Shown here one piece after another: positions 3,298 through 39,174 of a stretch of 64,000 nt of DNA. Both the position numbers and the translations under genes were made by a program. Numbering within the stretch: the stretch's first letter is position 1; every line of letters begins with the position of its first letter. The DNA comes from Tausonia pullulans (lineage: Eukaryota; Basidiomycota; Tremellomycetes; Cystofilobasidiales; Mrakiaceae): NCBI GenBank assembly GCA_951802195.1, contig OX637625.1, forward strand, positions 682,001 through 746,000, read 5' to 3'. Below the pieces are notes generated by a model. That model was given only the letters and a program-made list of their open reading frames with translations. It searched no databases and had not been told where the DNA came from.

Positions 3298-3371
3298 TGA
3301 TCAATGAGGGGGTCGAACCCGCGACCTTGGCGTTATTAGCACCACGCTCTAACCAACTGAGCTAATCGATC
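3298..3371 (-). tRNA. tRNA-Ile(AAT)
   Basis: Identical in its 74-nt body to 14-87 but inverted. A LINE 3'-tail fragment (about 3,436-3,526) lies about 65 bp upstream. The mirror is 29,363-29,436. Confidence 0.95.
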
Positions 3372-3435
3372 AACTGTCGGACAGTGACCGCAAGTGTCAG
3401 GCACGCGATGCCTTCACAAGCGCCCGTGCCAGCCA

Positions 3436-3526
3436 TCTGTCTCTCCCTCTATCTAGCTACGACTCGCTGTCGCTCATAGGGGTACCTCGTTCTCTGCGTA
3501 TGACTCGTGACTTTGATACAAAAAAA
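3436..3526 (+). mobile_element. 5'-truncated LINE 3' tail upstream of tRNA-Ile
   Basis: About 90 bp match the 3' end of the LINE at 15,466-20,140: a CTATCTAGCTACGACTCG core, then CTCATAGG, TTCTCTGCGTATGACTC and an A-rich end. The A tail points away from tRNA-Ile and the truncated 5' end faces it about 65 bp away. The mirror is about 29,208-29,298. Confidence 0.75.
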
Positions 3527-3802
3527 GCGAGAAGAAACAAGGAAGAAGAAAAAAGGAAAAAGAAAAAGAAAAGAAAAGGGACAGCATCCAACGCACGCTC
3601 TGTCCCGCTGCCCCGGATGAGTCCTCCGTCCATCTCTTCGACGAGCCTGTCCTGTCGTGCGCGCCGTCTGGACCGCTGCCGTGTGCGTCTCGCCTCGCCT
3701 CGCCCCCTCTCGCCTCCCCTCGCCTCGCCTTGTCCCATTACGTCCCACTACAACATGGACCAGAAAAGAGATGCTCTCGACGCCCCGCAAAAAGGAAGTT
3801 TT

Positions 3803-3955
3803 CGAAGATGGCAGGATTCGAACCTACGCGGCCAAAGGCCAACAGCTAACGATCGGGCGCTCCCAGTGTGTGCCCGACTGACAGCGGACAATCCAACACA
3901 ATCGGGAAGCTGGACTCGTTCGAAACTATCATCGTAACCACTTGATTACATCTCC
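3803..3955 (-). tRNA. tRNA-Ser(CGA), 71-nt intron
   Basis: A class II tRNA with acceptor GGAGATG/CATCTTC and variable arm GGCC-TTT-GGCC. The anticodon stem ATAGT pairs with GCTGT across the intron (3,848-3,918), which starts after A37. TCG near the intron 3' end can pair with the CGA anticodon, as in known eukaryotic tRNA introns. The mirror is 28,779-28,931. Confidence 0.85.
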
Positions 3956-4250
3956 AGACCGACGACTCATGGCAATGACCGCAGAGGTGACCATTACCAC
4001 CGGCCGCTGCCCAACAGCACGCCGGCCCATTGTCGCACGCCGCAACACTCCATCTCCCCACATTGACACAGCTAGCCACCCCCGCATCATCGACCTGTCG
4101 ACGACTGCACACTGGCCCGCTTCCGTCACCACCTCACCCACCTCGCGCACGAAGGAGGTCGTGTTGCTCGTCCCAGCGCTACTTTCTCCCGTCACATACG
4201 ACATCGAGGACGAACAACGAACGTCGCGGCCAACGGACGGCCGTCGGGGA

Positions 4251-4345
4251 AGGGGCGCAGGAGCTGGAAGGGGCGCAGGAGCTGGAAGGGGCGCAGGAGC
4301 TGGAAGGGGCGCAGGAGCTGGAAGGGGCGCAGGAGCTGGAGGGGG
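4251..4345 (+). repeat. 18-bp minisatellite, five copies
   Basis: Five near-perfect copies of an 18-bp unit around GGGGCGCAGGAGCTGGA. It produces repetitive open frames in several frames that are not genes. The mirror is about 28,389-28,483. Confidence 0.85.
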
Positions 4346-4458
4346 GAGGAGCGGAGACGCACGCAGGGCGAGCGCGTCCAGCTCGGAGGCGAAGAGCCAG
4401 GGGCAAGCTGAGCCGAGGGACGTGGTCGGCTCTCGCTGTGTTGTTCATCACATTACAC

Positions 4459-4553
4459 GGTCGGATGGCCGAGCGGTCTAAGGCGCTAGCTTAAGGTTCT
4501 TGAATAGAACTCGCTAGTCTTCACGGGCATGGGTTCGAATCCCATTCCGATCA
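4459..4553 (+). tRNA. tRNA-Leu(AAG), 15-nt intron
   Basis: A 95-nt class II tRNA with acceptor GGTCGGA/TCCGATC, anticodon stem CTAGC/GCTAG, TT-AAG-G, and intron 4,497-4,511 containing CTT able to pair with AAG. T5 at 4,560-4,564 may end transcription. Copies are 28,181-28,275 and 39,566-39,660. Confidence 0.95.
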
Positions 4554-4737
4554 TGTTTCTTTTTCCTCTCTTTGCCTCTCTCCTCTCTTTGCCTCTCTGT
4601 TTCTTCGCAGGGGACGTTGAGCCTCCTTAAGCCGCCGCCCAAGCAGGCTGGACGTGACCAGAGACCACGCTTCTCAGCACCGGACCCCGATGGGTTGTCT
4701 TCGCCGGCTGTCACAGCCGGACCGCATACTGTATCTG

Positions 4738-4750
4738 TTTGTATCTAAGT
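4738..4750 (-). mobile_element. Minimal or decayed LINE tail upstream of tRNA-Lys
   Basis: Thirteen bases resemble the last bases of the LINE 3' end (tail form TTTGTATTTAAGT, one difference). It is oriented with the tail end away from tRNA-Lys, about 94 bp upstream. It is too short to be certain. Confidence 0.35.
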
Positions 4751-4843
4751 GGAGGCGATTTGTGCCATGGTGGCCAGGGCCCGGTCCGACGACTGGCGTC
4801 CATCGACCAGCGTCCATCGGCCGCTCAGGCTGGATCGTCTGCT

Positions 4844-4943
4844 GCCCTGCTAGCTCAATCGGTAGAGCGTCAGACTCTTAGGCAGGATGCTATCATCGTC
4901 ACTGGTGATCTGAAGGTTGGGGGTTCGACCCCCCCGTGGGGCT
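4844..4943 (+). tRNA. tRNA-Lys(CTT), 27-nt intron
   Basis: 100 nt with acceptor GCCCTGC/GTGGGGC and anticodon stem TCAGA/TCTGA around C-T-CTT-A. The intron is 4,881-4,907. Copies are 27,791-27,890 and 38,964-39,063, the latter with one intron substitution. Confidence 0.93.
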
Positions 4944-5291
4944 AATGTTTCCTTTTGCAGGCCCTCCTGCTCTCCAGAGCTTCCCCTTGGGTGTGTGGGC
5001 CTGGGGGCAGTCATGTCGGAGAGTAAGGCGATGGTCCGGCGAGGACCTTGCAGGGGCCCAACGGTCCGCCATCTTCTCAGGGCTGCGCATCGTGATGACT
5101 TCTACACATCCATCAGCCAAGTCACCTCGAACTGCCGCGCGCGTTCGTTGAGCTGAAGGCCTGCGAGGGCCGGTGAGGGCCGGTGAGGGCCTGTGTTCCC
5201 CCCGGGCATGTTCTCGGCGTTGGCGACTGAAGCAGAGACGAGATGGAAACCGAGAAAGGACGGTCAGTTGATCTCGCCTGTCGAGTCCATC

Positions 5292-5364
5292 TCTCGGCTA
5301 GCTCAGTTGGTAGAGCGTCAGACTGTTAATCTGTAGGTCGACGGTTCGAACCCGTCGCTGAGAG
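5292..5364 (+). tRNA. tRNA-Asn(GTT)
   Basis: 73 nt, acceptor TCTCGGC/GCTGAGA, anticodon loop TGTTAAT, no intron. T4 follows about 8 bases downstream. The mirror is 27,370-27,442. Confidence 0.95.
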
Positions 5365-5773
5365 TGTTCTTTTGCACGGCCATCGGAAGAGCGAGCTGCC
5401 AGGCATTGGCCGTTGGTTGTTGGCCGTTGGTCGTCGGTCGTTGGAGGCGTCCTGCTGGATCTCGACGAGAGCCGCAGCTCACTGTTCATGATGTAGGCCA
5501 CTGCTCTTTCCAGCTCACCACAAGAGCCGGGGCTTCCCTTGTGGCCCTTACACACCCCTAGGTCAGGTCACTTGGTGAGGTCAAGTCGTGGCTCGTGTTG
5601 CAGCGTGTCCAGGTCGCGCTCCTGCCTTGCCGAGGGCTACCTAGTGTCGTGCAGTCGGGTCTCTTGCGATCCGACCTAGTGTCTCTTGCCGGGCGAGTTT
5701 GTCCCGGAATGCCCTCCTCGGAAACACGTCCTCCGACTTGCCGGCCTCACTAGCTTGCCGCAGCCCCTTCCCG
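5365..5773. repeat. Spacer with short dispersed repeat
   Basis: About 5,650-5,700 holds a motif around GGGTCTCTTGCGATCCGACC that recurs at about 12,749-12,793 and, inverted, near 38,557-38,575. Imperfect GGCCGTTGGT units lie near 5,405-5,440. No gene was seen. Confidence 0.55.
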
Positions 5774-5793
5774 TTTTTTTTTGTATTTAAGTC
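5774..5793 (-). mobile_element. Very short LINE tail upstream of tRNA-Glu
   Basis: A T run followed by GTATTTAAGTC is the complement of the LINE 3' end. The tail points away from tRNA-Glu and the 5' side faces it about 89 bp away. The mirror is about 26,941-26,960. Confidence 0.6.
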
Positions 5794-5881
5794 TTCCCGT
5801 TCCCGGGTATTCTACGTCACGGTCCGAGCCTGCGGAGGTGCGAGCGTCGATATGATCGGTGGCCGTCCGACCACCAGCCCG

Positions 5882-5953
5882 TCCTTTGTTGTCTAACGGC
5901 TATGATATGACGCTCTCACCGTCAAGGCCCGGGTTCGACTCCCGGCAAGGGAA
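5882..5953 (+). tRNA. tRNA-Glu(CTC)
   Basis: 72 nt, acceptor TCCTTTG/CAAGGGA, anticodon loop TCTCACC, no intron. Copies are 13,807-13,878, 26,781-26,852 and 40,106-40,177. Confidence 0.95.
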
Positions 5954-6296
5954 TTGTTTTGACGCTTGAAGCTTTGCGTTTCGCGTTTTGCGTCTTGATG
6001 TTCTGATGTTTTGCTCAGGGCGAGATGTTGGGGTTGAGGATGGAGCGAGCAAGGACAGAAGCGAGTGTTCTGCCAGTGCAGGTCGCAGCGCCATCAGTGG
6101 AGCTCCTGGTGGGCACTGGTGGGCCTTCTCTTCTCAGGCCAACTGCCTCCCTCCCTTCAGACGCGCTCGCCTCGTTGCCCCTACCTGCTCCGTGGTAGAT
6201 GAAAGGTGAAGGATGACCGGTAGCCGGTAGACGGGGGAAACGAATTGTAGTCTGGACATGGACGATCGTGCTGGCAGCGGCTCCCCATCCATAGTT

Positions 6297-6369
6297 GGGG
6301 GTTTAGCTCAGTTGGTAGAGCGTTCGCTTCGCATGTGAAAGGTCATGAGTTCAACTCTTATAGCCTCCA
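6297..6369 (+). tRNA. tRNA-Ala(CGC)
   Basis: 73 nt, acceptor GGGGGTT/AGCCTCC, anticodon loop TTCGCAT, no intron. It differs from the Ala(AGC) genes at a few positions and shares their T arm. The mirror is 26,365-26,437. Confidence 0.95.
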
Positions 6370-6539
6370 TCGGTCTCTTTTGTCGCCGGGCCACGGGGGC
6401 AGGGGGAACAAGCTGTAGTTGCGACTCGCTAGTCGCGAGTTGCGGTTGTGAGCTGCCGTCGCGAGTTGCCGCTGCGAGCTGCGGTTGAGAGCTGAGCGAC
6501 CTCCTGGTTGCACTGCTCCATCCCACCGCATCCCACACG

Positions 6540-6655
6540 GCTGGGATGGCCGAGCGGTCGAGGGCGCGAGCCTAGGGTGCATCCTCAGAAGTCGCTAGTC
6601 TCCACAGGCATCGGTCTGGGGTTCTCTGGGGTTCTCTGAGGTTCTCTGAGTATCC
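6540..6655 (+). pseudogene. tRNA-Leu pseudogene with a repeat in place of its T arm
   Basis: Acceptor, D arm, split anticodon arm and variable arm resemble tRNA-Leu(AAG) at 4,459. The anticodon position reads AGG (a proline anticodon) and stem pair 28-42 is mismatched. After the variable arm there is no B box, only imperfect copies of GGGGTTCTCT/GAGGTTCTCT (about 6,617-6,650). The mirror is 26,079-26,194. Confidence 0.7.
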
Positions 6656-6802
6656 CTGAGCTTCTTACTGATCATGATCCCGACTGGCCGCCTCCAACGG
6701 CCGAGGGGTTGTTTCAGCCGGGACAGAATATCGGGAAGGTGTCGAGCTGCGGTGCCCAAGCTGGCGCTGTATCAGTTTGTGTCTTGTGAGGATTCCAGTC
6801 CG

Positions 6803-6936
6803 TCTTTGGTGGTCCAACGGCTAAGATGTCCGCCTGTCAGTGAAGCTCGTATCCCCTGTTCGTCTCTTTCAGGAGCGGTTGGGCGAACGAGCAAGCTTGC
6901 CCGCGGGAGACCGGGGTTCGACTCCCCGCCAGAGAG
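6803..6936 (+). tRNA. tRNA-Asp(GTC), 62-nt intron
   Basis: 134 nt with acceptor TCTTTGG/CCAGAGA, anticodon stem TCCGC/GCGGG, T33-GTC-A37, and intron 6,840-6,901. The mirror is 25,798-25,931. The intron is long for a fungal tRNA. Confidence 0.9.
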
Positions 6937-7134
6937 CGCTCTCTTTTGTCGGGCCGCGGAGATGGCGTGAGGCCGAGATGGCGGGACGCCGGGACGCCGG
7001 GATGGCGGGATGTCAGAAGACGTTCCAGACCAGCAGCACCCAGTCGTGATATATGCGCCTACTCACTCGAGACAGGCGTAGACGACAAGTCGAAGAGCTG
7101 ACGGTTGGCGTCGAGTTTTCGACCAGTATGGAGT

Positions 7135-7229
7135 GCGAGTATGGGACAGTGGTTACTCCGTTGCCCTGCTATGTACAGCTGCATAGGCAATGCCCTCTGG
7201 GTGCGTCGGTTCGAATCCGTCTGCTCGCG
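7135..7229 (+). tRNA. tRNA-Ser(GCT), 13-nt intron
   Basis: A 95-nt class II tRNA with acceptor GCGAGTA/TGCTCGC, anticodon stem TTGCC/GGCAA and variable arm GCCC-TCT-GGGT. The intron (7,172-7,184) contains AGC able to pair with the GCT anticodon. The mirror is 25,505-25,599. Confidence 0.93.
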
Positions 7230-7425
7230 TGCTTCCTTTTGGCGGCAACGATCATCGTCGAGGGAGACGAAAGCATCTCAGATGACTGCCCCGTCGTCTC
7301 CGCTGATGAGCTTGGTCGGCCGCAAGGACGGAGGGCGGAGGGATGTCGCGGCGGCGGGGATGAGGCGAGAATGCGAGGGCGAAGGGATGGGAATCGTCAG
7401 GGACGTACTACCACCACCCGTTGTC

Positions 7426-7497
7426 GTCGGGATCGTATAATGGTTAGTACAAGGTGTTAACACCGCCTAGACCCGGGTTCAATTCCCGGTCCTGATA
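7426..7497 (+). tRNA. tRNA-Val(AAC)
   Basis: 72 nt, acceptor GTCGGGA/TCCTGAT, anticodon loop TTAACAC, no intron. Copies are 25,237-25,308, 35,361-35,432 and 38,705-38,776. Confidence 0.95.
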
Positions 7498-8093
7498 TGC
7501 CTGAGATGGCTGAGGTGCACATGCACACAGGTGACCTGCACGGGTGGCTGTCTTCTTTTGTCGCTCTCGAACTCTGATGGCGCAAGAGAGAAGCGGCCAG
7601 GGAAATGCGCTGCTGTGTGGACGGGGGTGCAATTCGGCATGCACCTCGAGAGTTGATGCAGTTCCGAAGGACGTGGACGACACTGCATACATCGGGAGTG
7701 GAAGGGGGAGAGAGTCTGGATGGCATACCCCCGACGGCGAATCAGCCACGGCTGCGAGTCGCCATCACCGGCACTTGCTCCCGGCGCTTGCTGCTCCCGA
7801 CACTCACTCCGAGGACAGTCTCTTTCTCTTGCTAGACAGGCCTCTGTCCATCTGCCTGCGGGACACAAGCTGATCGTTCCTCCTCTATCAATCGCACTTG
7901 CCTCCGTCTCACCCGCGCTCAGAGGCTCATAAGCCCCCACGTGCCGTGCGCTCCTGGCTCCAGCCCCCACGCATCAACATCTCTCGTGGCTGACTCTGAT
8001 GCAGAGGGGACCACTCGACTGGCGAGGAGCTTGCCAAGTCTGCCGAAGGATGGCGTATCGTGTTCTCCATCGTGTTGGCAGCAGCACCTGCTC
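7498..8093. other. Gene-free spacer
   Basis: Unique sequence between tRNA-Val and tRNA-Ala. Several overlapping open frames on both strands show no family, no matching codon bias and no intron structure. I see no gene. The mirror is about 24,641-25,236. Confidence 0.5.
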
Positions 8094-8166
8094 GGGGATT
8101 TAGCTCAGTTGGTAGAGCGTACGCTTAGCATGTGTAAGGTCATGAGTTCAACTCTTATAGTCTCCA
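8094..8166 (+). tRNA. tRNA-Ala(AGC)
   Basis: Body identical to 2,511-2,583. The mirror is 24,568-24,640. Confidence 0.95.
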
Positions 8167-8304
8167 AGCATTGCTCCTCTTCACAGGAGGAGTATGCAGT
8201 TTTGTCAGTCGTGCGATGCGCCAAATCTGTGCGTTCTTTTTTTTTTTCTTGACGGAGGGATGAGGGCCAGGGGGTCGGTCAGCGGGTCAGGAGGGTGGGG
8301 ACGG

Positions 8305-8424
8305 GGGGCGAGGGGCGAGGGGCGAGGGGCGAGGGGCGAGGGGCGAGGGGCGAGGGGCGAGGGGCGAGGGGCGAGGGGCGAGGGGCGAGGGGCGAGGGGC
8401 GAGGGGCGAGGGGCGAGGGGCGAG
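8305..8424 (+). repeat. Heptamer satellite GAGGGGC, about 17 copies
   Basis: A perfect 7-bp tandem repeat. The mirrored array (about 24,339-24,428) is 28 bp, or four units, shorter, so it is one of the few places where the arms differ. Confidence 0.95.
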
Positions 8425-8499
8425 AGTAGCTCCGGATACCTCCTGCCGAAGATGTATGTACACCCTCTGGGACATTTCCACATATCGATATATCGATAC

Positions 8500-8629
8500 G
8501 ATTGATTAGTCTAGGTGGTTAGGGCGTTGGCTTGTGGCGAACAAAGGTCTCGTCTCTCCGTCACCGAGCAAGACGAGGCTGTGACTCATCATAACGCCAG
8601 ATACCAGGGTTCGAGTCCCTGATCGATCA
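8500..8629 (+). tRNA. tRNA-His(GTG), 57-nt intron
   Basis: 130 nt with acceptor GATTGAT/ATCGATC, anticodon stem TTGGC/GCCAG, T33-GTG-G37, and intron 8,538-8,594 containing CAC that could pair with the anticodon. Discriminator A. The mirror is 24,133-24,262. Confidence 0.88.
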
Positions 8630-9003
8630 GCGCTGCTTGGCAGTTTCGCTTTTGTCGACTGACGCTGTGTTGATGATGAACGCCGTAGGGATCGTCCGAC
8701 CGACATCATACTGCGAGGTCGCATGGACAATGGATCTCGCGCATGTCAGCGATCCACCACCTTCCTTCGCCAACACACTTGCAGAGTTGCCATGGCTCTC
8801 GGGAGCCAGACACCCTTGGGTCTGCTCGGTTAGGGTGGCAAGCTAGTGTCAACCAGGGCGACGAGCTAGTCTTAGCCAGGGCAGGTTCTCTGCTCACCGA
8901 TCCATAGGCCCACACGCGCAAGACGCCTCGCCATCGAGTGACACGCAGTCTGTGAATATAGCATAGAGCGAGGCCCTGGGTGACGAGGGAAACGGCCCAA
9001 AAG

Positions 9004-9146
9004 GGACCCAGACCGGATTTGAACCGGGGACCTCGTCCATGATCAACCAGTATCCTCTCTCTCGAGCGAAGGCTGGCTTGCTACCCCGATATGGGGCGGG
9101 TTGAAGACAGCCCGAAGGACGCGTGATACCACTACACCACTGGGTC
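9004..9146 (-). tRNA. tRNA-Pro(CGG), 71-nt intron
   Basis: 143 nt with acceptor GACCCAG/CTGGGTC, anticodon stem CGTCC/GGACG, T33-CGG-G37, and intron 9,040-9,110. The mirror is 23,616-23,758. Confidence 0.9.
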
Positions 9147-9230
9147 GAGCCAGAGCCGCTAGGGCTGGTCGGGTGGTGGAGCAGAGCAGCCGGCCGTTGA
9201 GGAGGAGCGCGCCGACGGCGAGATCAGCCG

Positions 9231-9330
9231 GCTTGCCAGCTCTCGCCAGCTCTCGCCAGCTCTCGCCAGCTCTCGCCAGCTCTCGCCAGCTCTCGCCAGC
9301 TCTCGCCAGCTCTCGCCAGCTCTCGCTAGC
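9231..9330 (+). repeat. 10-bp satellite CTCGCCAGCT
   Basis: About nine to ten near-perfect units. The mirrored array (about 23,472-23,531) is exactly 40 bp, or four units, shorter. Confidence 0.95.
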
Positions 9331-9537
9331 TCAGGCTAGCTCAGGCGACAGGTCCTCTATGCTTGATGGAAGACCTAACATGTCAAAAGAAGAAACGCTC
9401 ACAGTCAGCAAGAGCATGGGACGACCGGCATGTAGTCCTTCCAGCCAGAGAACGGGATGAGACATGGTGTGTGAACACTGCGCATATCAGGGCTGACGCC
9501 GGAGGCGATGGTTGCTTGATCGATCCGGGCCAGGCCT

Positions 9538-9618
9538 GCCCGCCATCGCCCGCCACCACCTGCCATCGCCCGCCACCACCTGCCACCACCTGCCACCACC
9601 TGCCACCACCTGCCACCG
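9538..9618 (+). repeat. CCACCACCTG-type tandem repeat
   Basis: Imperfect 10-20 bp units of CCACCACCTGCCA and CCATCGCCCG. The mirror is about 23,184-23,264. Confidence 0.8.
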
Positions 9619-9755
9619 TCTGTCTTCTAGACTTGAGCTGCCTTGAGTTTACGCAAGGATGACAGAAACCCGTACAGTTGTGAGGATCAACGGTCTGGCT
9701 GACGGAGGGAGACGTCGAGCATCGAGCATCAGGCATCTCGCATTGCTTTGTGCAA

Positions 9756-9846
9756 CACCGCTTAGCTCATCTGGAAGAGCGTCAGACTGTAAAGTTACTA
9801 TAATACACTCCTCTGAAGGTATCTGGTTCGATCCCGGAAGTGGTGA
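9756..9846 (+). tRNA. tRNA-Tyr(GTA), 18-nt intron
   Basis: 91 nt with acceptor CACCGCT/AGTGGTG, anticodon stem TCAGA/TCTGA, C-T-GTA-A and intron 9,793-9,810. The mirror is 22,956-23,046. A different Tyr gene with an 18-nt intron is at 31,700-31,790. Confidence 0.93.
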
Positions 9847-10190
9847 TAGCTTTTGCCAGTCCTGTGCCGGTTTGTTGCCGCTCTTGTGCGCCTTCCTGTG
9901 TCTTTTGTCTGAAGGACAGAGAGGTGCCATGAGGGCGGTGAAGCCGGCGGTGCCTCAGGTTGGCCAGACGCCCCCACGGTAAGCCCAAGTCAACAGGCAA
10001 GGCTGGGCAAAGGCAAAAGACGAGGATGCAGCCCAGACGAAAAGGCGAAATGAAGCTGGTTAGTAGCAGCCAGGCCAGGCGGCGCGGTGTGCCATCCTTG
10101 TCACTCACACCTTACCTCTTTCGATGCTGCGAGGCCTTTCCCCGTACGAACGAAACTGTTGGGCGAAAACCAAAGGAAAGGAAAGACAAC

Positions 10191-10266
10191 GACAAAGGAA
10201 AGAAATGACAAAGAAAGGACAAAGAAAAGACAAAGAAAAGACAAAGAAAAGACAAAGAAAAGACAA
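10191..10266 (+). repeat. A-rich AAAGAAAAGAC repeat
   Basis: Imperfect 10-11 bp purine units just 3' of tRNA-Gly(GCC). On the minus strand this gives a T-rich stretch that could also stop Pol III. The mirror is about 22,536-22,611. Confidence 0.8.
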
Positions 10267-10272
10267 AAAATG

Positions 10273-10359
10273 TAATGGTGCCGGGAATTGAACCCGGGCC
10301 TAGTGCATGCTGCAAATCTGCTTGGCAAGCACCAATGATAGCCACTTCACCACACCATT
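10273..10359 (-). tRNA. tRNA-Gly(GCC), 15-nt intron
   Basis: 87 nt with acceptor AATGGTG/CACCATT, anticodon stem GGTGC/GCACT and TT-GCC-A before a 15-nt intron. A second, inverted copy in the same arm is 11,358-11,444. The mirror is 22,443-22,529. Confidence 0.88.
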
Positions 10360-10449
10360 CACCGCATCTCAACGCCGACGCCTGAGATTGATGGTCATTC
10401 AGCGACCCGCGCTCAACCACCGCGGCATCTTTCGAGCTCCCAGGTTTGT

Positions 10450-10475
10450 GTCATGACTTGTATACAAAAAAAAAA
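10450..10475 (+). mobile_element. Short LINE tail upstream of tRNA-Gly
   Basis: A form of the LINE 3' end (TCATGACTTGTATAC followed by A11). The A tail points away from tRNA-Gly(GCC) and the truncated end faces it about 91 bp away. The mirror is about 22,327-22,352. Confidence 0.65.
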
Positions 10476-10619
10476 GAGTTTGTATTCTAACCATCGAGTC
10501 ATCTGCAACTTCAAAATACAATGACCGTAGTCAATGAGAGGCAGCGGACCGGGGAAGGGAGACGAGCTATCGTGCGCGCGCTCCCGGAAGCGGCGGGGAT
10601 GGCCAACCGGAGTAAGGAG

Positions 10620-10664
10620 AAGGAAGGGTGTGTGTGTGTGTGCGTGTGGGGGGGGGGGGGGGGT
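10620..10664 (+). repeat. GT/G microsatellite
   Basis: A (GT)n tract followed by G16. The mirrored tract at about 22,140-22,182 has one base fewer. Confidence 0.9.
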
Positions 10665-10890
10665 GAGCGTAAGAGGAGGGTCGTTCCTCTCCTCGCGTGT
10701 TTGTCCCTGCAGCTCCTCGTGGCTCGTCGCGACTCCTCGTGGCCCCCTTGTGGCTCCTCGCAAGAGTCGACACAGGAGACCCCCTAAAGTCACGCCTACG
10801 CAGAATACCGAGCAGAACAAAGCCGTGGGCTCAAAGACGCAAGCGCAGGCGAGATCCCCGGTGGCGTGCAAGGATCATCGAGCGATTGAG

Positions 10891-10962
10891 GGATGTGTCG
10901 TATAGTGGTTATTATTCAAGATTTCCATTCTTGAGACAGGTGTTCGATTCACCTCACATTCA
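10891..10962 (+). tRNA. tRNA-Gly(TCC)
   Basis: 72 nt, acceptor GGATGTG/CACATTC, anticodon stem CAAGA/TCTTG around TTTCCAT, no intron. The mirror is 21,841-21,912. Confidence 0.94.
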
Positions 10963-11357
10963 ACCTTTTGGCCTTTCAAGCCGCATCCTGATGAAGCGGC
11001 CCTTTGGACCTTTTGCTCTAAGAACCTCCTCTTTTCCTCTGCCCTTTGCTGAAAGTCGTCCAGGATGAGCTGCCGATGAGCCAGCACACTTGTCGCATGG
11101 CATGGCCTGGCGCACGAGAGACAGAGACTGATGAGAATCTTGAGCGATGGATGGTGAATGGCAAATAGCACTGCAGACGGCGGACCACACTGCCAGCGTC
11201 TTTGAACCAGGCCGCTAGGATTCCTGATGCAAGAAAACAGGAACGCTTTCGTGTTTTTGGACATGTGTGGTGATGGCCTGAAGCAGTCGGTGAGATTGGG
11301 ATGGCTGTGTGAGGCGACTGCTGATGTGATAGAGGCTGCGGTGACTGAGATATGCGG
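10963..11357. other. Gene-free spacer
   Basis: Unique DNA between the two Gly genes. Open frames here are unsupported. The mirror is about 21,446-21,840. Confidence 0.5.
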
Positions 11358-11444
11358 AATGGTGTGGTGAAGTGGCTATCATTGGTGCTTGCCAAGCAGA
11401 TTTGCAGCATGCACTAGGCCCGGGTTCAATTCCCGGCACCATTA
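11358..11444 (+). tRNA. tRNA-Gly(GCC), 15-nt intron
   Basis: Same 87-nt body as 10,273-10,359 with intron 11,395-11,409. T6 follows within 5 bases. The mirror is 21,359-21,445. Confidence 0.88.
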
Positions 11445-11764
11445 CATTTTTTCTCCGTGTCGTTCGTCTGGCCATGTGGCCATGTGGACATGCTTATAGG
11501 CCGTGACCAGCTTCGGTGAGGGGACCAGCGGGAGCTCAGCGCCTGCGTCTACCTCGCCTGCCCTAGGCCTCTCTCTCTCCCTTGCTTGCTCGGCATTCCC
11601 CCTCCTTCGGTCCTTCTCCTCCCACGCCGACACCCACTCTTTGCTTTCTCGTCTTTTTTCGTCTCCTCCATTCTTCTCGCCTTTCGCAGTAGCGCACTTC
11701 TTCAGGCTCCCCGCCGGAGAGGCGAGCCAAAGATATGGTCCCAAAAACGGACGGCACGTCCAAC

Positions 11765-13878: not shown

Positions 13879-13929
13879 TATGGTGATGAAGAACGAGTCG
13901 GGTGTCAAGTGCTATATGACCTCACAAAA

Positions 13930-29298: not shown

Positions 29299-29362
29299 TG
29301 GCTGGCACGGGCGCTTGTGAAGGCATCGCGTGCCTGACACTTGCGGTCACTGTCCGACAGTT

Positions 29363-29436
29363 GATCGATTAGCTCAGTTGGTTAGAGCGTGGTGCTAATA
29401 ACGCCAAGGTCGCGGGTTCGACCCCCTCATTGATCA
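29363..29436 (+). tRNA. tRNA-Ile(AAT)
   Basis: Mirror of 3,298-3,371. Confidence 0.95.
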
Positions 29437-29760
29437 AGATTTTTGTCGGTCGTCCTGCCGATCGACCTGGACCTGGCCCCTCGATCTTGCCGATCAACCT
29501 GGCGTCTCGTTCTTGTCTGTCGACCTGGCGTCTCGCTCTTCTATTGTTGTGCCGCTCACGGACCACCCTACCGATCCCCGCAAGCTGCATCCTCGTCCCT
29601 TGCAGTATCGGCGGCCACCCACTGTTGCCCTCCCGCCGAGATGCCGTTGGCCGGAGTCTGTCCGATTCAGCTGTCGTCCATCATCTCGCCTGGCCATGGA
29701 AGAGACGGGAGTGGGTTGTGTGTTTTGTATTGATGTGGTCCATCGGTGACCACCACGACT

Positions 29761-29833
29761 GCCTCGATAGCTCATCTGGTAGAGCGTACGCCTGAAGAGC
29801 GTAAGGTGGCCTGTTCGAGCCAGGCTCGAGGCA
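29761..29833 (+). tRNA. tRNA-Phe(GAA)
   Basis: Mirror of 2,901-2,973. Confidence 0.95.
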
Positions 29834-30150
29834 TCCTCTTTTGCTGCCCTCATAGGGGGTGACGGCAGGGTGACGGCAGGTCCTGAGTGTTTGTTGCCGT
29901 CCGGGGCGGACCGGACGGAGACTAGCTCTTTCGGCGGTGCTTTGCAAGATGGTGGATGTGGATGAGCGCCATGTGTGTACGTACCGCCGGGTGTGTTCGC
30001 ACGAGCTACCTGCCGTGGTGGCATGTACGCAGTGGGCCGATGGGCCGATGGGCCGATCGCCTGCTTCGCCTGCTTCGCCGCTGTCACTGGCTTTGTCCCG
30101 CCCCGCCCAACAAAAGGACGACGGCCTCTCGACGAGAGAGAGGATCATCT

Positions 30151-30223
30151 TGGAGACTATAAGAGTTGAACTCATGACCTTACACATGCTAAGCGTACGC
30201 TCTACCAACTGAGCTAAATCCCC
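30151..30223 (-). tRNA. tRNA-Ala(AGC)
   Basis: Mirror of 2,511-2,583. Confidence 0.95.
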
Positions 30224-30577
30224 AGGCGGTTGTTCATGCCATATCCATCGCCTGTCTCGCCCTCTGACGATCATTCTCTCTCCCACCCCTATCCATTTCC
30301 TTGGCGCTTCCCTCCTCCGCCCAGCCCTGCCTGTGTATCTGCAGTATGGCGGTCGTGGTGCAGCCGGTGTGGTGCAGCCGGCATGGTGCAGCCGGCGTAT
30401 TGCAGCCGGGTCCTGCACAGGAGCAGACGAACAGGCCACGAGGCTGTTGAGGCTGGACAGGCTTGAAGACGACCTGTGAGTCGATTCGTCCAGCTTGTGA
30501 ACGTCTGGAAAAAAAAGACGGGACGACGGAGATGGCACCCGAGAAGGTCGATCCAACGAAGGCGAATGACATCCATC

Positions 30578-30650
30578 GCTTCCTTGGTTTAGGGGCTATA
30601 ACACGTCACTAGTAATGATGAGGTCAGTCGTTCGATTCGGCTAGGAAGCT
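30578..30650 (+). tRNA. tRNA-Thr(AGT)
   Basis: Mirror of 2,084-2,156. Confidence 0.95.
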
Positions 30651-31151
30651 TGAGCGTCCGCTCTCTTTTGTTGCTGGCGTGCGCAAGTTCAGACGGTCGA
30701 ACCAACCCAACGTCACAGCAAGCCACAACAAGACACAGCAAGCCACAACAAGACACAGCAAGCCACAACAAGTCTCACAAGACACAATGATGGCTCCCAA
30801 ACAGGGAGTGCAACGCCGGGCGACGTCGGCGGGACGAGGGCATGAGTCCAGAGCGACTCCGCGACAGGGACACATACTCTTGCCTCGGCCCATCTCCGTC
30901 TTGTGCGTCCTGCCCAGCCTTCGCTGTGACAATACTCGCCGTCTATTGACGAGCAGTATCAGGAACCATGACAGCCGCGATGGAGAGCTTGTGAGGAGTG
31001 GCACAAGGTCCGCGAGATTCCGAGAGAGATCTTGCATCGCTGTTAGCTTCTGTGCTGCTCTTGGCTTCCGCGCTGTTCTTGGCTTCCGCGCTGCGACTGG
31101 CTTCCGCGCTGCTGTTAGCTCCTTCGCCGCGATTCGCACCGGCCAACGGGA

Positions 31152-31209
31152 TGCCTCGAGCCTCGGCCAACCAGGCTGCCGGACGCTCTAACAGATAAGC
31201 TACCGAGGC
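31152..31209 (-). pseudogene. tRNA-Phe pseudogene
   Basis: Mirror of 1,525-1,582. Confidence 0.75.
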
Positions 31210-31319
31210 GGTGGTGGCCGTCAAGCTGGCCAGGATATGACCGAGCAGCGCGCGCCAGCTATCGCCGGACTCGTTCCCTACCTCGAGAAAATGCATTGGA
31301 AGCCGTTGCAAAAGGTGTA

Positions 31320-31391
31320 TTCCCCTGCCGGGAGTCGAACCCGGGCCTTGACGGTGAAAGCGTCATATCATAACCGTTAGACAACAAGGGA
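31320..31391 (-). tRNA. tRNA-Glu(TTC)
   Basis: 72 nt, acceptor TCCCTTG/CAGGGGA, anticodon loop TTTCACC, no intron. It is the only Glu(TTC) in the window, and only its 3' end survives in the left arm (1,391-1,414). Its B box (31,331-31,343) is one end of the 468-bp indel. Confidence 0.95.
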
Positions 31392-31699
31392 GATCGTCGT
31401 CGTCGACTCAGTCAGTACGCACTCTGCTCTCGCCAGATCCAACTGCCCTCGCGCTCTCGCAAGTGCCTCATCAGTCAAGGTGCTCATTTGGCAATACAGA
31501 GAGAGCCTCGATGTCTTGTGGTTCTGGCTGGCCGCTCTAATACAAGCTCCGGCGGGTACGCCATGGTCGGTGGTCGGGCCGACCTTCCGCTCCCGGGCTC
31601 CTGGTTCCGCTGCTCCTGCTCCTGCTCCTGCTGCTTCTGCTGCTGGGGTCTCGCTTCACCTTCACCCTCCTCGACCAAGCTCGGGACCCCAAAACATTT
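31392..31699. other. Right-arm-only spacer
   Basis: Part of the 468 bp missing from the left arm. A TGCTCC-type simple repeat lies near 31,611-31,640. No gene was seen. Confidence 0.5.
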
Positions 31700-31790
31700 T
31701 CACCGCTCGCGGGATCGAACCGCGCACCTTGAGAGATGTGTGTGTGGGTGGCGTTACAGTCTCACGCTCTTCCAGATGAGCTAAGCGGTG
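31700..31790 (-). tRNA. tRNA-Tyr(GTA), second type, 18-nt intron
   Basis: 91 nt with acceptor CACCGCT/AGCGGTG, anticodon stem TGAGA/TCTCA, C-T-GTA-A and an 18-nt CA-rich intron. It differs from the arm Tyr gene (9,756) in stem and intron. It is absent from the left arm. Confidence 0.92.
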
Positions 31791-31798
31791 GCGGCGTT

Positions 31799-31811
31799 GG
31801 AGTCGAACCCG
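31799..31811 (-). other. Orphan B-box copy, end of the 468-bp indel
   Basis: A perfect 13-bp copy of the tRNA-Glu(TTC) B-box segment (31,331-31,343), exactly 468 bp away and in the same orientation. No full tRNA surrounds it. It lies 9 bp upstream of the tRNA-Tyr 5' end and is probably a tRNA remnant. Confidence 0.75.
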
Positions 31812-33114
31812 CCTGCCCTTGGCTGCGGCCGTCATCGCAGGCGCCGGGCCTTTGTCCTTGCTAGAGCACGTCATCAAGAGGCTCGATCCCGTCGGTTCAA
31901 GCCTCCTCACTTCGGAGTCAGACTACGGAAACTGGAAACTGGAAACTGCACACTGCACACTGCACACTGCTAATAGAGAATGCAAAGCGCGAGAGGGTGG
32001 AGCAACGTGGACTGCAAGCGAAATGGGCAAAGGAGAAACCCTGATCTTCAAAGCTCGGCGATCATCATCGACTGGCGACAGATCGGCCAGTCATACGCAG
32101 ACACACGCAGACACACGCAGACACACGCAGACACACGCAGGCAACGTAGGGCCAAGACACGATCCGGGACGTAAGAATGAAAGGGGGGAAGGTGTTGAAT
32201 TGAAGTCAAGGTGCTGGGGCAGGCGACGCTCAGGAAGCAATGCTGGGTCTCCTGACATAGAATGAGCAGCAGAACTCTTGTTGCCGAGACTTTTGGCGAA
32301 GGAGACGGCAAAGTATAGAGCGCGAGTGCTGGGTCCTTTGACCGGAAGAGAAACGGACGAAATCAACGGACGAAATCGTCGACAGGCTGGAGAGGAGGGG
32401 GGAGGAGGGGGGAGGGAGAGGAGACAAGGGGCAAGAGGGACCGAGAAGGAGAGAGAGGAGACAAGAGAAGAGAGGAGACAAGAGAAGAGAGGAGACAAGA
32501 GGAGAGCGGAGCCGACGAGGGAGACTGAGAGCAGAGACGACGGCACCGATCGACAGCCATCACCGCCCCAGCATGCGCAGACTCCGATATAATAAAGGAG
32601 AACGCAGCACTCAACATATGCAGGATAGGAGAGGCAAACGCCAGTAGGACCCTGGAGGCGAGTACGTGGAGCTCTCGAGCACGCTGAAATGCCAATGAAT
32701 CATTGGCCAACCCCGTCAGTGATCTGGACGCAGCGAAGGCTGCGTAGGTAGGAGTGCGTGTGCGCCTCGAGAAGGATAACACACTGTTTGAGGACCTGTG
32801 ATGATCTGGTAGACAAGGGAAGGAGCGAGAGGGAAGAAGAGACGAGCTGAGGAGGGCAAAGAAGGCGATGGACAGGGGAGGTTGAGAGATGGTTGGATTG
32901 GTCGCGAGCGAGATACATCAAAGATGGCTACTCCTCAGTTCCCAGCATACTCCACCTGGAGACTGGACCTCACGCACGCTCTAGACATCAAATATCCGCA
33001 AAGCGGCCAGACGTCTGTTGTGACTCTAGGTGCGATTCGAGGAGAGGAAGGTCATGGGGAATGGCAACTCCGTGTCCCGGCTCGTACGCCACCGATGACA
33101 CAGCCAAAAAGACA
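31812..33114. repeat. Gene-free stretch with simple repeats
   Basis: Mirror of about 88-1,390, including the substitution at 32,899. Confidence 0.6.
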
Positions 33115-33188
33115 TGATCAATGAGGGGGTCGAACCCGCGACCTTGGCGTTATTAGCACCACGCTCTAACCAACTGAGCTAATCGATC
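33115..33188 (-). tRNA. tRNA-Ile(AAT)
   Basis: Mirror of 14-87, the outermost visible gene of the right arm. Confidence 0.95.
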
Positions 33189-33404
33189 AACTGTCGCACG
33201 ATGGCAAGCCATCAGGCCCGGCACGCTACACCCCGGAGCGCTTGCTCGAAAAGAGGTCGGGCTAGCCAGTCGAGGGAGCCAGTCGAGGGAACCAGGCCGG
33301 CGACAGATACAGTCCTTCGGGTCACTGTGAACCCGGCTCGACTCCGAAATGTCCCCCCGAACCCCCTCGCTCCGACGGACTCGCCATCTCCCACGTCCCG
33401 ACCA

Positions 33405-33777: not shown

Positions 33778-34070
33778 TTTTTTTTTGTATGAAGTCATGA
33801 GTTATACGTAGAGAACGAGGTAACTCTATGTTTTTTTTGTATTTAAGTCTCTATGTTTTTTTTTTTTTTTTTTGTATTTAAGTCATGAGTTATACGTAGA
33901 GAACGAGGTAACCCTATGAGAGATGATGATTCGTAGCTAGATAGAAGGAAAGCGAAAATGAATTTTTTTTTTTTTGTATTTAAGTCATGAGTTATACGTG
34001 GAGAACGAGGTAACCCTATGAGAGATAGCGAGTTGTAGCTAGATAGAGGGAGAGCGGACATGACCGAGCG
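33778..34070 (-). mobile_element. Stack of four LINE 3' tails
   Basis: Four head-to-tail pieces of the LINE 3' end, each with its own A tail (T run on the plus strand): about 33,778-33,830, 33,831-33,854, 33,856-33,962 and 33,963-34,070. Lengths range from about 24 to 107 bp, all in the same orientation. They may be repeated insertions at one site or slippage during reverse transcription. Confidence 0.8.
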
Positions 34071-34089
34071 CGAGAACGTCGGGCGAGGC

Positions 34090-35217
34090 GCCGTGGGAAG
34101 AGGGTTGGTCGAACCACTGGGGATGGTTGGCCGGACGGCGTGATGGGCGCCGTGAGAGGGGGGGGGGGGTTGGTCGAACCACCGGGATGGTGGTTGGCCG
34201 GAAGAGGGTTGGTCGAACCACCGGGGATGGTTGGCCGGACGGCGTGATGGGCGCCGTGAGAGGGGGGGGGGGGGGTTGGTCGAACCACCGGGATGGTGGT
34301 TGGCCGGAAGGGGGTTGGTCGAACCACTGGGGATGGTTGGCCGGACGGCGTGATGGGCGCCGTGAGAGGGGGGGGGGGGTTGGTCGAACCACCGGGATGG
34401 TGGTTGGCCGGAAGGGGGTTGGTCGAACCACTGGGGATGGTTGGCCGGACGGCGTGATGGGCGCCGTGAGAGGGGGGGGGGGGGTTGGTCGAACCACCGG
34501 GGATGGTTGGCCGGACGGCGTGATGGGCGCCGTGAGAGGGGGGGGGGGGGTTGGTCGAACCACCGGGATGGTGGTTGGCCGGAAGGGGGTTGGTCGAACC
34601 ACTGGGGATGGTTGGCCGGACGGCGTGATGGGCGCCGTGAGAGGGGGGGTCGAACCACCGGGATGGTGGTTGGCCGGAAGAGGGTTGGTCGAACCACCGG
34701 GGATGGTTGGCCGGACGGCGTGATGGGCGCCGTGAGAGGGGGGGGGGGGGTTGGTCGAACCACCGGGATGGTGGTTGGCCGGAAGGGGGTTGGTCGAACC
34801 ACTGGGGATGGTTGGCCGGACGGCGTGATGGGCGCCGTGAGAGGGGGGGGGGGGTTGGTCGAACCACCGGGATGGTGGTTGGCCGGAAGAGGGTTGGTCG
34901 AACCACCGGGGATGGTTGGCCGGACGGCGTGATGGGCGCCGTGAGAGGGGGGGGGGGGGGTTGGTCGAACCACCGGGATGGTGGTTGGCCGGAAGGGGGT
35001 TGGTCGAACCACTGGGGATGGTTGGCCGGACGGCGTGATGGGCGCCGTGAGAGGGGGGGGGGGGTTGGTCGAACCACTGGGGATGGTTGGCCGGACGGCG
35101 TGATGGGCGCCGTGAGAGGGGGGGGGGGGTTGGTCGAACCACTGGGGATGGTTGGCCGGACGGCGTGATGGGCGCCGTGAGAGGGGGGGGGGGGGTTGGT
35201 CGAACCACCGGGATGGC
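34090..35217 (+). repeat. Compound minisatellite with B-box-like core, about 21 units
   Basis: Two alternating unit types of roughly 40 and 65 bp, each with TTGGTCGAACCAC(C/T)GGG. On the minus strand this reads GGTTCGACCAACC, close to the tRNA B box GGTTCGANTCC. Units end in a G run of varying length. Long Pro/Gly/Arg-rich open frames on both strands are by-products of the repeat. The array is bounded on both sides by LINE tails. Confidence 0.9.
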
Positions 35218-35220
35218 GAC

Positions 35221-35286
35221 TTTTTTTTTTGTATTTAAGTCATGAGTTATACGTGGAGAACGAGGTAACCCTATGAGAGATGGCGA
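35221..35286 (-). mobile_element. 5'-truncated LINE tail upstream of tRNA-Val
   Basis: T10 then GTATTTAAGTCATGAGTTAT and the CGAGGTAACCCTATGAGAGA block. The truncated 5' side faces tRNA-Val 75 bp away and the A tail faces the minisatellite. Confidence 0.85.
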
Positions 35287-35360
35287 TGACAAAGAGGCGA
35301 GAGGCAGCGTCGGAGTTGGAAGAGATGGCAGGGATGGAGGAAGACCATCAGCAGTTGATT

Positions 35361-36680: not shown

Positions 36681-36763
36681 GCCTCGATAGTTTAGTTGGT
36701 TATGACTCAAGTCTCATATCTGCATGCGATCTTGCGACCCCAGTTCGAATCTGGGTCGAGGCA
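36681..36763 (+). tRNA. tRNA-Met(CAT), elongator, 10-nt intron
   Basis: Exons identical to 13,083-13,165. The intron (36,719-36,728) differs and contains ATG able to pair with the CAT anticodon. Confidence 0.9.
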
Positions 36764-37224
36764 TCCATCGCGGCGTCACGTGCGGGCTTCGCTTTTTTGC
36801 ACGGGTGCACGGGTGCACGAATGCACTGGTTCACTGGTTCGCGGGTTCACGGGTTCACAGGAGCACAAGGGCGCAGTATCAGGATCTCGTGGACTTGCCA
36901 CCTCGGCTCTGCGCCTAGCTATTTCTTTTCTGCCCCTCTTCTCGCGCATCCTTTTCAGCCCTCGACCCCTGAGAGAGAGCCCCATTGGAAACTGGACCGC
37001 TTCCTCGGCCTGTCAAGCTGGGTGGGAGCTTCGGAGGACGAAAATGCATGTCGAAAGGACTTGACGAACGACCGTCTTCCGTTCGACGACTCGGCTGACG
37101 GGCGCGTCCAAACTAGACATTTAGCGAGACAGAGGAGTCGCGCGAGAACCGACATGTAACAACCGCACGCTTGCAGAAGAAACCTTCGTCTGCTGGGAGT
37201 CCAATCCGGGTGATACAGCTAGAT
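36764..37224. repeat. Spacer with short repeats
   Basis: About 36,803-36,870 has 8-9 bp units (ACGGGTGC, GGTTCAC). About 36,883-36,960 is a truncated inverted piece of dispersed repeat R. No gene was seen. Confidence 0.5.
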
Positions 37225-37640
37225 TGTCAGGATCTCGCGGACCTGCCACCTTGGTTCTGCGCCTGGCTAGCTCTGTGCCTGTGTTGCCTTTTCCCTGCTT
37301 GCTCCGCATTCCCTCATCTTGGACCATTCTTCCGCCACATTGGCTCATGCTCCTTGTCTTGTTGCTCTTTCTTCTCTCTTTATTCGACATCTGCCCTATA
37401 CTCTTTGCGTTCTCGCGCTTCTCACCCCCTCCCTTGTTCTTACCCTTGGTCCATAAAACGCTCAGATCGTCGTAGGTCTTGTTCTGCACTCTGACTATCA
37501 TCTGGACACGACAAACCAGCCCAATATCCTTAAGCGAGCCCGTGTCACCTCCGCCACTTCAGTTCCATTTCATCACCCGCCACCGCTCTCAGTACACTTC
37601 GTCGCCAACGTCCCTCTCCTCGCTCAACCCTCTCTGCCAT
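37225..37640 (-). repeat. Dispersed repeat family R, copy 3 (inverted)
   Basis: The reverse complement shares the GGAACTGAAGTGG, GATGATAGTCAGAGTGCAG, GCGTTTTATGGACC and GAGGGAATGCGGAGCAAGC blocks of the family and ends near a GATCCTGAC motif. It is non-coding. Confidence 0.7.
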
Positions 37641-37867
37641 CGACCCTTGGGCCAATCCTAACATAGATCGTCATACTACTATAGCCCTGAGACACCAAAG
37701 GAGGAGGTGGTCGACGGGAAATGCGGTGGCTCGAGTGCTGGAGACTCGGGATGGCCCTCTTTTCGGTCAGATGGAGGAGAGACTGGCCCATCCGCCGAGT
37801 CAGGCGCACGCTCCTCCCGCCCTGGCAAAGAGAAGAGAGTATCCTGAGTGGAGGATGCAAAAGGAGA

Positions 37868-37941
37868 TGATCAATGAGGGGGTCGAACCCGCGACCTTGG
37901 CGTTATTAGCACCACGCTCTAACCAACTGAGCTAATCGATC
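37868..37941 (-). tRNA. tRNA-Ile(AAT)
   Basis: Same 74-nt body as 14-87, the fifth copy. Confidence 0.95.
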
Positions 37942-38704
37942 GACCAGGAGATGGTTGTCAGGCCATTCAGCCACGCCTCCTCGTGCTCCTCCTCGTACTC
38001 TCTCTCTTGCCCTTGACTCCGATTGATTGCATACGTCATCCGCGGCGATCATCGGATGACGGAAATTCGGAAATGGGCAGGCCAGCACGCTGAGATCGAG
38101 GGTGACAGTGGTGGCTGCGGATACGAGATGAAAGGTGAAGAATGCGATCGTGATCATCGTCCGACGGCGTGGCGAGGGAATGGACTGTGTCCCACTTTCT
38201 TCTTTGCTCGCCACTGCACGCAGACTGCAGAAGAAAGAGGCTCTTCCCTTGTTCCCTGTTGGGCGAAGATGAGCGCAGGTCCATCGTCACGCCGGTCTGA
38301 CGGGATACACAACGGCCGGTTCAAGCGGCTCGCAGCTCGTAGCCCATAGCCCATAGCCCATAGCCCATAGCCCATATGGGATGGGCCTTCCCTATAGCCT
38401 ACTGCTCGACAATACCATACGCTCCATACGCTCTAGGTCTGACTTTGTCGGTGTCGCCTACCAGATCGCCGCCGCTGGATCTCCTCTAGCCCGTGTGTGA
38501 GGTACGGAGTCCATGCTCTGACCCAAATCGACGCATGACCCGGTAAAGGGCACTGAATCGGATCGCAAGAGACCCGCTTGAATGAGACCAAGCAGCCAAT
38601 GGCGAGGCGGGAGCGTGATCCTGACATGGCTATAGGGATGGAACAGATAGAGCAGTCCCGGGGCAAAAGAGAAGAACGAATCAGGAATGATGTCGCGTGC
38701 TTGA
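37942..38704. other. Gene-free spacer
   Basis: It contains a 7-bp AGCCCAT tandem (about 38,337-38,373) and, near 38,557-38,575, an inverted piece of the repeat also at 5,660. No gene was seen. Confidence 0.5.
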
Positions 38705-38776
38705 TATCAGGACCGGGAATTGAACCCGGGTCTAGGCGGTGTTAACACCTTGTACTAACCATTATACGATCCCGAC
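38705..38776 (-). tRNA. tRNA-Val(AAC)
   Basis: Body identical to 7,426-7,497. Confidence 0.95.
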
Positions 38777-38963
38777 GATGATGTGCTGATGGTGGTGTTC
38801 ACCTGCGCCCGAGTCCGGACGCCGGATCCCAGTTCTTTGGTTCGCCGTTCGTTCCCATCTCTCCTTGTGGCGACGAAGAACAGCCTGTATGATGGCTGCT
38901 TCCACATCATGAAGCTTTCGGAAAGGTGAAAAAGGAAACATGAAACATGAAAAAGGAAACATT

Positions 38964-39063
38964 AGCCCCACGGGGGGGTCGAACCCCCAACCTTCAGATT
39001 ACCAGTGACGATGATAGCATCCTGCCTAAGAGTCTGACGCTCTACCGATTGAGCTAGCAGGGC
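38964..39063 (-). tRNA. tRNA-Lys(CTT), 27-nt intron
   Basis: As 4,844-4,943 with one intron base changed. The 3' flank (AAAAGGAAACATTAG on the plus strand) is shared with the arm copy. Confidence 0.93.
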
Positions 39064-39154
39064 AGCAGACAGTCCAGCCGAAGCCGTCGTCGTTCGATGG
39101 CAGCCTTCGACCGGTCGCGGACTGACCCTGACGGATGTTTCTCTTGACAAGTTC

Positions 39155-39174
39155 GTACTTAAATACAAAAAAAA
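39155..39174 (+). mobile_element. Very short LINE tail upstream of tRNA-Lys
   Basis: TACTTAAATAC followed by A8. The A tail points away from tRNA-Lys and the truncated side faces it about 92 bp away. Confidence 0.6.

Follow-up and report, generated by a model that had tools for sequence, protein, structure and literature searches.

An L1-type LINE of the fungus Tausonia pullulans that appears to insert repeatedly within a narrow interval upstream of tRNA genes

The stretch of DNA analysed here, called the window, comprises 64,000 nucleotides of the basidiomycete Tausonia pullulans (GenBank assembly GCA_951802195.1, contig OX637625.1, positions 682,001 to 746,000, or C6:682001-746000 of the genome searched, which is 23.9 Mb in 21 contigs). 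It holds a dense cluster of tRNA genes (41 in the first ARAGORN call, 49 Rfam matches) and, upstream of several of them, copies of a long interspersed nuclear element (LINE). Much of the cluster lies in an inverted duplication, with arms at 1-11684 and 21119-33201 that are near-identical over about 11.7 kb bar short interruptions; the duplication reflects either a recent event or an effect of assembly. Very probably, as set out below, an L1-type LINE inserts repeatedly in this genome, usually at 59-109 bp on the upstream side of a tRNA gene and transcribed away from it, in a pattern that may reflect positioning by the RNA polymerase III (Pol III) machinery. The LINE sequences of the window, with the open reading frames (ORFs) of the longest copy and its neighbouring gene, are as follows; one site also carries a partner resembling a short interspersed nuclear element (SINE).

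3441 to 3718, plus strand: LINE fragments, 68 bp upstream of tRNA-Ile (3297-3372, minus strand) and transcribed away from it; BLAST; score 90, 0/200 shuffles.
4738 to 4750, minus strand: probable LINE 3' tip, weak, 93 bp from tRNA-Lys 4844 (plus strand); 12/13 nt, score 22, p 0.02 by shuffling.
5775 to 5793, minus strand: LINE 3' tip, 88 bp from tRNA-Glu 5882 (plus strand); 19/19 nt identical, 0/200 shuffles.
10451 to 10473, plus strand: LINE 3' tip, 91 bp from tRNA-Gly (10272-10359, minus strand); 21/23 nt, 0/200 shuffles.
13946 to 13993, plus strand: LINE 3' end, 67 bp from tRNA-Glu (13807-13878, minus strand); BLAST and tail alignment.
15470 to 20141, minus strand: 5'-truncated LINE copy lying 79 bp upstream of tRNA-Ser 20221 (BLAST), from which transcription leads away; its 3' end was placed by eye at an A-run.
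15730 to 18972, minus strand: ORF2 frame of this copy, reverse transcriptase, 1080 aa; Pfam RVT_1, 8.3e-25.
18972 to 19928, minus strand: 3' part of ORF1, 318 aa, with two CCHC-like knuckles seen by eye; no Pfam match.
20221 to 20304, plus strand: tRNA-Ser(aga) beside the long LINE copy, from the tRNA calls.
29016 to 29293, minus strand: mirror copy, on the other arm, of the LINE fragments at tRNA-Ile 3372.
33778 to 35287, minus strand: chain of LINE tails and SINE-like elements with a repeat of about 104 bp expanded, 72 bp upstream of tRNA-Val 35360 (plus strand) and transcribed away from it; BLAST.
39157 to 39174, plus strand: LINE 3' tip, 93 bp from tRNA-Lys (38964-39063, minus strand); 18/18 nt, 0/200 shuffles.

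The initial annotation had proposed LINE sequence at eight tRNA genes of the window. Seven of these are clear by BLAST and tail alignment and one, at Lys 4844, is weak; at all of them the element is transcribed away from its tRNA with its 5' side facing the gene, as had been described. Short copies were assessed by local alignment of the 62-nt LINE tail to 400-bp tRNA flanks, with significance from 200 shuffles. tRNA-Ser 20221 is negative in this alignment, the length of its copy placing the tail far from the gene. Repeats read from the sequence as apparent target-site duplications flank the tips at Glu 5882 (ACGGGAA), Gly 10359 (GTTTGT) and Lys 39063 (GTTCGT), the last a gene that ARAGORN labels Thr when introns are allowed. 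Given the identity of the arms, the tip at Glu 5882 should have a mirror copy on the other arm. Scanning of 24 other tRNA flanks in the window gave two upstream scores at p<0.02 in the away orientation: the first, for Val 38776 at a distance of 381 bp, corresponds to the copy of Lys 39063 met again, and the second, for Met 13082, is weak (score 23, p 0.005).

The copy beside tRNA-Ser carries ORF1 and ORF2 in tandem. It had been taken for a full LINE and is not one: other copies extend about 740 nt further 5', and it is without 435 bp of ORF2 that nine other loci keep. A long copy, measured from its 5' end through the tail motif, is 5796 nt, giving a full length of about 5.8 kb. At locus L018, ORF1 is a 645-aa open frame as listed, with the same junction end and a listed start upstream of the element's own first ATG; ORF2 (4790-8464) encodes 1224 aa and overlaps ORF1 at the stop/start. 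This ORF2 matches RVT_1 (Pfam, 4.5e-25), and its residues 20-236 match the EEP endonuclease family PF03372 with an E value of 1.7e-4 and 21.8 bits, below the curated cut-off of 24.5; PF03372 is also present in several homologues of the window ORF2. No RNase H domain was found in the L018 ORF2 by Pfam. Against solved structures, its best match is human L1 ORF2p (E 4.2e-45), the best R2 chain reaching 1.2e-15. Judged by sequence, the element is an L1-type retrotransposon without long terminal repeats (non-LTR), and its copies include an A-tail, many differing 5' truncation points and target-site duplications. The best matches of the window ORF2 are two uncharacterised ORF2-like proteins of Microbotryum silenes-dioicae, P0001 and P0002, at 36% identity over 71% of ORF2; neither is among the matches to the longer L018 query, for which the 8000 candidates sharing most words were scored.

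Genome-wide, on both strands, the 19-nt 3'-end motif CTACGTATAACTCATGACT with up to 3 mismatches gave 222 + 287 = 509 matches, as against 3 for the reversed motif used as a control. A hundred exact tail copies, spanning C1 to C6:893,992, were listed blind to tRNA genes, and 94 were examined, the remainder being four in an array on C2 and two left of the window. From each tail a walk was made 5'-ward through element sequence to the first tRNA on either strand, tolerating up to 400 bp of unmatched sequence. Thirty-eight walks met a tRNA, 52 ran past the end of the stretch and 4 met none. In every one of the 38 the tRNA lay on the opposite strand, and the innermost junction lay 59-97 bp from it in 34, the outlying junctions being at 137, 151, 260 and 261 bp. 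Two further tails that the walk scored as cut off (L046 and L057) end in tRNA sequence by BLAST. In L039 three copies reach two genes, at 80 and 90 bp, the outer copy lying farther along the same chain; these genes, which have a 78-nt intron, were found by reading and by ARAGORN run without the intron filter. That filter, which admits introns of up to 60 nt, hid long-intron tRNA genes in L039, L046 and L047. tRNA or tRNA-like genes with introns of at least 60 nt occur in these three loci and at 6803-6937 of the window, and standard calls easily miss them. Altogether, 43 of the 44 copies followed to their 5' boundary reach a tRNA gene, upstream and in opposite orientation, three of them on weaker tRNA evidence. 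Elements in L011 and L030 that seemed to point towards a tRNA were rejected as exceptions, as the walk ended at a different tRNA, 79 and 69 bp away, lying to the opposite side.

Many of the 50 copies whose tails were not traced are probably full length, given that 19 distinct LINE 5'-end motifs pair with listed tails on the same strand at 5.7-6.05 kb. Coordinates would place three such tails at tRNA genes: those at C2:1556496 and C3:411595 are each separated by 5.8 kb from a LINE 5'-end motif, the two motifs being themselves 75 and 106 bp from listed tRNAs, and that at C5:642687 fits a copy starting 89 bp from tRNA-Asn (L098, L063). Other Pol III genes among the scored candidates, namely 5S (1 match) and U6 (3, one below the cut-off), had no listed exact tail within 5 kb and are too few to test.

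Pooling the LINE-centred stretches, a tRNA-centred sample and the window gives 53 tRNA sites with an element within 300 bp upstream, where only the nearest element was counted, tRNA calls were limited to introns of up to 60 nt, and duplicates (L034, L074, L075, L080 and the right arm of the window) were removed. At C6:794000-835000, one tRNA-Glu with its LINE tail recurs in three segments about 17.6 kb apart (L073-L075). Over the 53 sites, the distance to the nearest element has a median of 85 bp (interquartile range 75-96); it is never below 59 bp and falls within 59-109 bp at 47 sites. The element points away from the tRNA at all 53, irrespective of isotype, of which ARAGORN labels 15. Downstream, all loci examined yielded three matches within 300 bp: two, in L027, are copies that belong to the upstream flanks of adjacent tRNA genes, and the third, 46 bp long, is in L097. 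The comparison of distance and strand with random placement that had been proposed at the outset thus yields, for the copies examined, a distance peak and a complete strand bias.

Two controls start from the tRNA genes or from coordinates. For the tRNA-centred sample, genes were taken from the 63 best Rfam matches, blind to the LINE; those within stretches already examined or within the window were excluded, as were one gene on C21 and a few duplicates. The 20 stretches of the sample hold 21 genes, all labelled Trp, Asn or (one) Ala. An element lies within 300 bp upstream of 15 of the 21, pointing away in 15 of 15 (one, in L104, is a weak match with 66.7% identity at 213 bp), and there is one 46-bp match within 300 bp downstream. 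When only the tail was aligned, with a score of at least 30, the counts were 7/21 upstream in the away orientation and 0/21 in each of the other categories of side and orientation. For the coordinate test, 50 LINE 5' ends were set against an incomplete list of 133 tRNA positions, with 1000 trials of uniform random placement in which some contigs were given an assumed length of 1 Mb. Five 5' ends lie 75-106 bp from a listed tRNA, all upstream and away (random mean 0.034, maximum 1), and up to 300 bp the remaining three categories are empty. Among tails within 300 bp of listed tRNAs, 14 are upstream and away (random mean 0.2) and 1 is upstream and points toward the tRNA; this lone case, C2:1458499, is part of a chain that starts at a tRNA-Asp on the opposite side.

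Several observations weigh against so strict a placement. At six of the 53 sites the nearest element is 119-261 bp away, and the copy in L028 (C2:1266069) was traced to its 5' end with no tRNA there. Fifty of the 94 tails examined were not traced to their 5' end, and 44 of the 50 LINE 5' ends have no tRNA of the incomplete list within 300 bp. The two genes in L039 have an unusually placed intron and are not matched by Rfam at E up to 0.5. Extended to 1000 bp, the picture is mixed: 16 tails are upstream-away, 10 upstream-toward, none downstream-away and 4 downstream-toward, and 10 LINE 5' ends are upstream-away and 2 downstream-away. The mixed orientation at 300-1000 bp may reflect the clustering of tRNA genes, which would bring a tail close to genes other than its own. 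Nor is there a clear age gradient: copies nearer the tRNA match the motif better, as expected if they were the younger, in 8 comparisons and not in 5, with 3 ties.

The same interval is also occupied by a SINE-like element, 208 nt to the end of the motif, whose 5' part of about 122 nt is unrelated to the LINE and whose remaining 80 nt or so are common to the LINE tail, save for a diagnostic C at the second base of the tail motif. A motif from its middle has 67 + 95 = 162 genome matches as against 3 for a control. The SINE is the best match to the innermost block at 8 of 51 sites, with distances from the tRNA of 65-100 bp for seven and 150 bp for the other; in two of the seven, L088 and L107, its match starts 41 and 51 nt into the block. 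The occurrence of the SINE at the same distance suggests that whatever sets the address acts on any RNA with the shared tail. The 5' part of the SINE holds the repeat of about 104 bp that is expanded beside tRNA-Val 35360; a B-box-like GGTTCGACC within this repeat was seen by eye, and Rfam scans of SINE-bearing loci matched tRNA families alone. The array upstream of that gene, where LINE 3' ends had initially been noted, is a mixture of LINE tails and this distinct SINE-like element. A larger array of LINE/SINE units at C2:363000-401190 (L025 in part) has a spacing of 6.1-6.3 kb, and its listed tails are all transcribed away from the tRNA-Ile at 401190. It is a candidate for serial insertion from one tRNA gene; its regular spacing also fits tandem duplication.

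The use of one side, one strand and one distance across many isotypes would fit a complex placed by the Pol III initiation machinery. We propose that the LINE protein complex is positioned on the tRNA gene by this machinery, probably by TFIIIB/TFIIIC, and that it nicks the DNA just upstream. Reverse transcription primed from the same strand each time would then leave the A-tail distal and the 5' end facing the tRNA, and later insertions would enter between the tRNA and older copies, building head-to-tail chains of LINE and SINE. The endonuclease might instead read a DNA motif upstream of tRNA genes without Pol III factors, and L1-type endonucleases do have sequence preferences. This would need the same motif, in the same place and on the same strand, upstream of many isotypes, whereas the 5' flanks differ between isotypes and share no obvious common word by eye, no formal motif search having been made. 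We regard such a motif-based mechanism as unlikely.

The tails might instead be old tRNA flanks spread by segmental duplication and not separate insertions, and duplications here are real: besides the arms of the window, L073-L075 represent one insertion, and the insertion at Glu 13878 recurs in the paralogues L080, L002 and L003. Yet once recognised duplicates are removed there are still 53 sites of 15 labelled isotypes with differing gaps and truncation points, and different isotypes have differing flanks, in line with the separate insertions first suggested. Target-site duplications, sought as had been recommended, exceed their control: direct repeats of at least 5 nt flank 12 of 29 copies (duplicate loci included, namely L073-L075 and L080 with window Glu 13878), compared with 9.4% of mismatched pairs. 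Two paralogous tRNA-Asn loci further provide an empty and a filled site. Their flanks are 97-98% identical, and L036 contains a 207-nt LINE fragment, 85 bp from tRNA-Asn and bounded by the 12-bp repeat GCGTCTGACYAC with one mismatch, which L096 lacks. This insertion postdates the duplication and contradicts duplication as a full account. L096 already has an older copy starting 84 bp from the tRNA, so the same interval was hit twice. Inheritance by segmental duplication is accordingly very improbable; neither a lack of distance peak and strand bias nor copied ancient flanks, the two outcomes foreseen as telling against targeting, was found among the copies examined, with 50 of the 94 tails untraced to the 5' end. 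It is just as improbable that the LINE inserts anywhere and survives only in gene-poor tRNA flanks, which are plausible safe places where selection could enrich copies, given that selection alone yields neither a single orientation at 53 of 53 sites nor a one-sided interval of a few tens of bp.

Apart from the LINE, the window holds a 172-bp LTR-like sequence at 14798-14972 and 15240-15413, with more than 30 genome copies at 98-99%, many on C14, C19 and C20, and a diverged copy inverted nearby. Several pairs lie about 4.53 kb apart in the same orientation, and these are thus probably retrotransposon LTRs. A protein encoded in the window has, after one match at 99%, its best named matches in mushroom-forming fungi, at 33-36%.

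Insertion by a tRNA-targeting LINE has close parallels in social amoebae. TRE5-A and the other TRE5 elements of Dictyostelium discoideum are described as non-LTR elements with two ORFs, an apurinic/apyrimidinic-type (APE) endonuclease, a reverse transcriptase and an A-tail, and like the fungal element they are found upstream of tRNA genes and are transcribed in the opposite direction (PMC5911963, PMC5006619). In the same accounts TRE5-A needs the B box of its target, and its ORF1 protein contacts TFIIIB (PMC5911963, PMC5006619). The reported TRE5 distance is about 44-54 bp, whereas the element described here lies at 59-109 bp at 47 of 53 sites with a median of 85; its host is a fungus, and a tail-sharing SINE at the same place is absent from the portions of the TRE5 accounts consulted. 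NLTR-B of Polysphondylium pallidum is likewise a non-LTR element, found 39-64 bp upstream of tRNA genes (PMC5911963, PMC5006619). It is described as only distantly related to TRE, so the tRNA-targeting habit arose more than once; unlike the fungal ORF2, in which Pfam found none, it carries an RNase H.

Among fungi, Ty1, Ty3 and other LTR elements are retroelements that land at tRNA genes (PMC5911963), and Ty1 and Ty2 are named for tRNA genes (PMC13269885). They have LTRs and an integrase, and are placed up to about 1 kb upstream (Ty1) or at the transcription start (Ty3), whereas the Tausonia element is non-LTR with an A-tail and 5' truncation. Closer in kind is Zorro3 of Candida albicans, a fungal L1-type LINE of 5.76 kb with two ORFs, which differs in targeting poly(A) sequences; the account consulted gives the Zorro elements insertion habits other than tRNA targeting (PMC7175516). 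The table of a 2018 review, in the part seen, lists TRE5, TRE3, NLTR-A and NLTR-B and no fungal non-LTR element (PMC5911963). That review describes the targets of fungal retroelements, LINEs included, as not fully worked out and expects Pol III targeting to feature (PMC5911963). Our full-text search, whose coverage largely excludes subscription journals, found tRNA-targeting LINEs described for social amoebae only, and the initial view that no fungal LINE of this sort had been described holds within that literature.

On balance we favour the view that a fungal L1-type LINE evolved strict one-sided tRNA targeting independently of the amoebal elements, and that a SINE is delivered to the same interval. 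If so, the address would belong to the LINE machinery acting on a shared 3' tail rather than to the body of the element, and a single tRNA gene would give rise to a long head-to-tail array of LINE and SINE units by repeated insertion between the gene and older copies. The tail-sharing SINE would be a natural test of whether targeting resides in the LINE proteins, and the element itself is a LINE whose landing site can be predicted. With a fungal case, convergence on Pol III genes would extend across kingdoms, and the mechanism would become accessible to yeast genetics, a field in which the Pol III factors and the tethering of Ty1/Ty3 are well understood.

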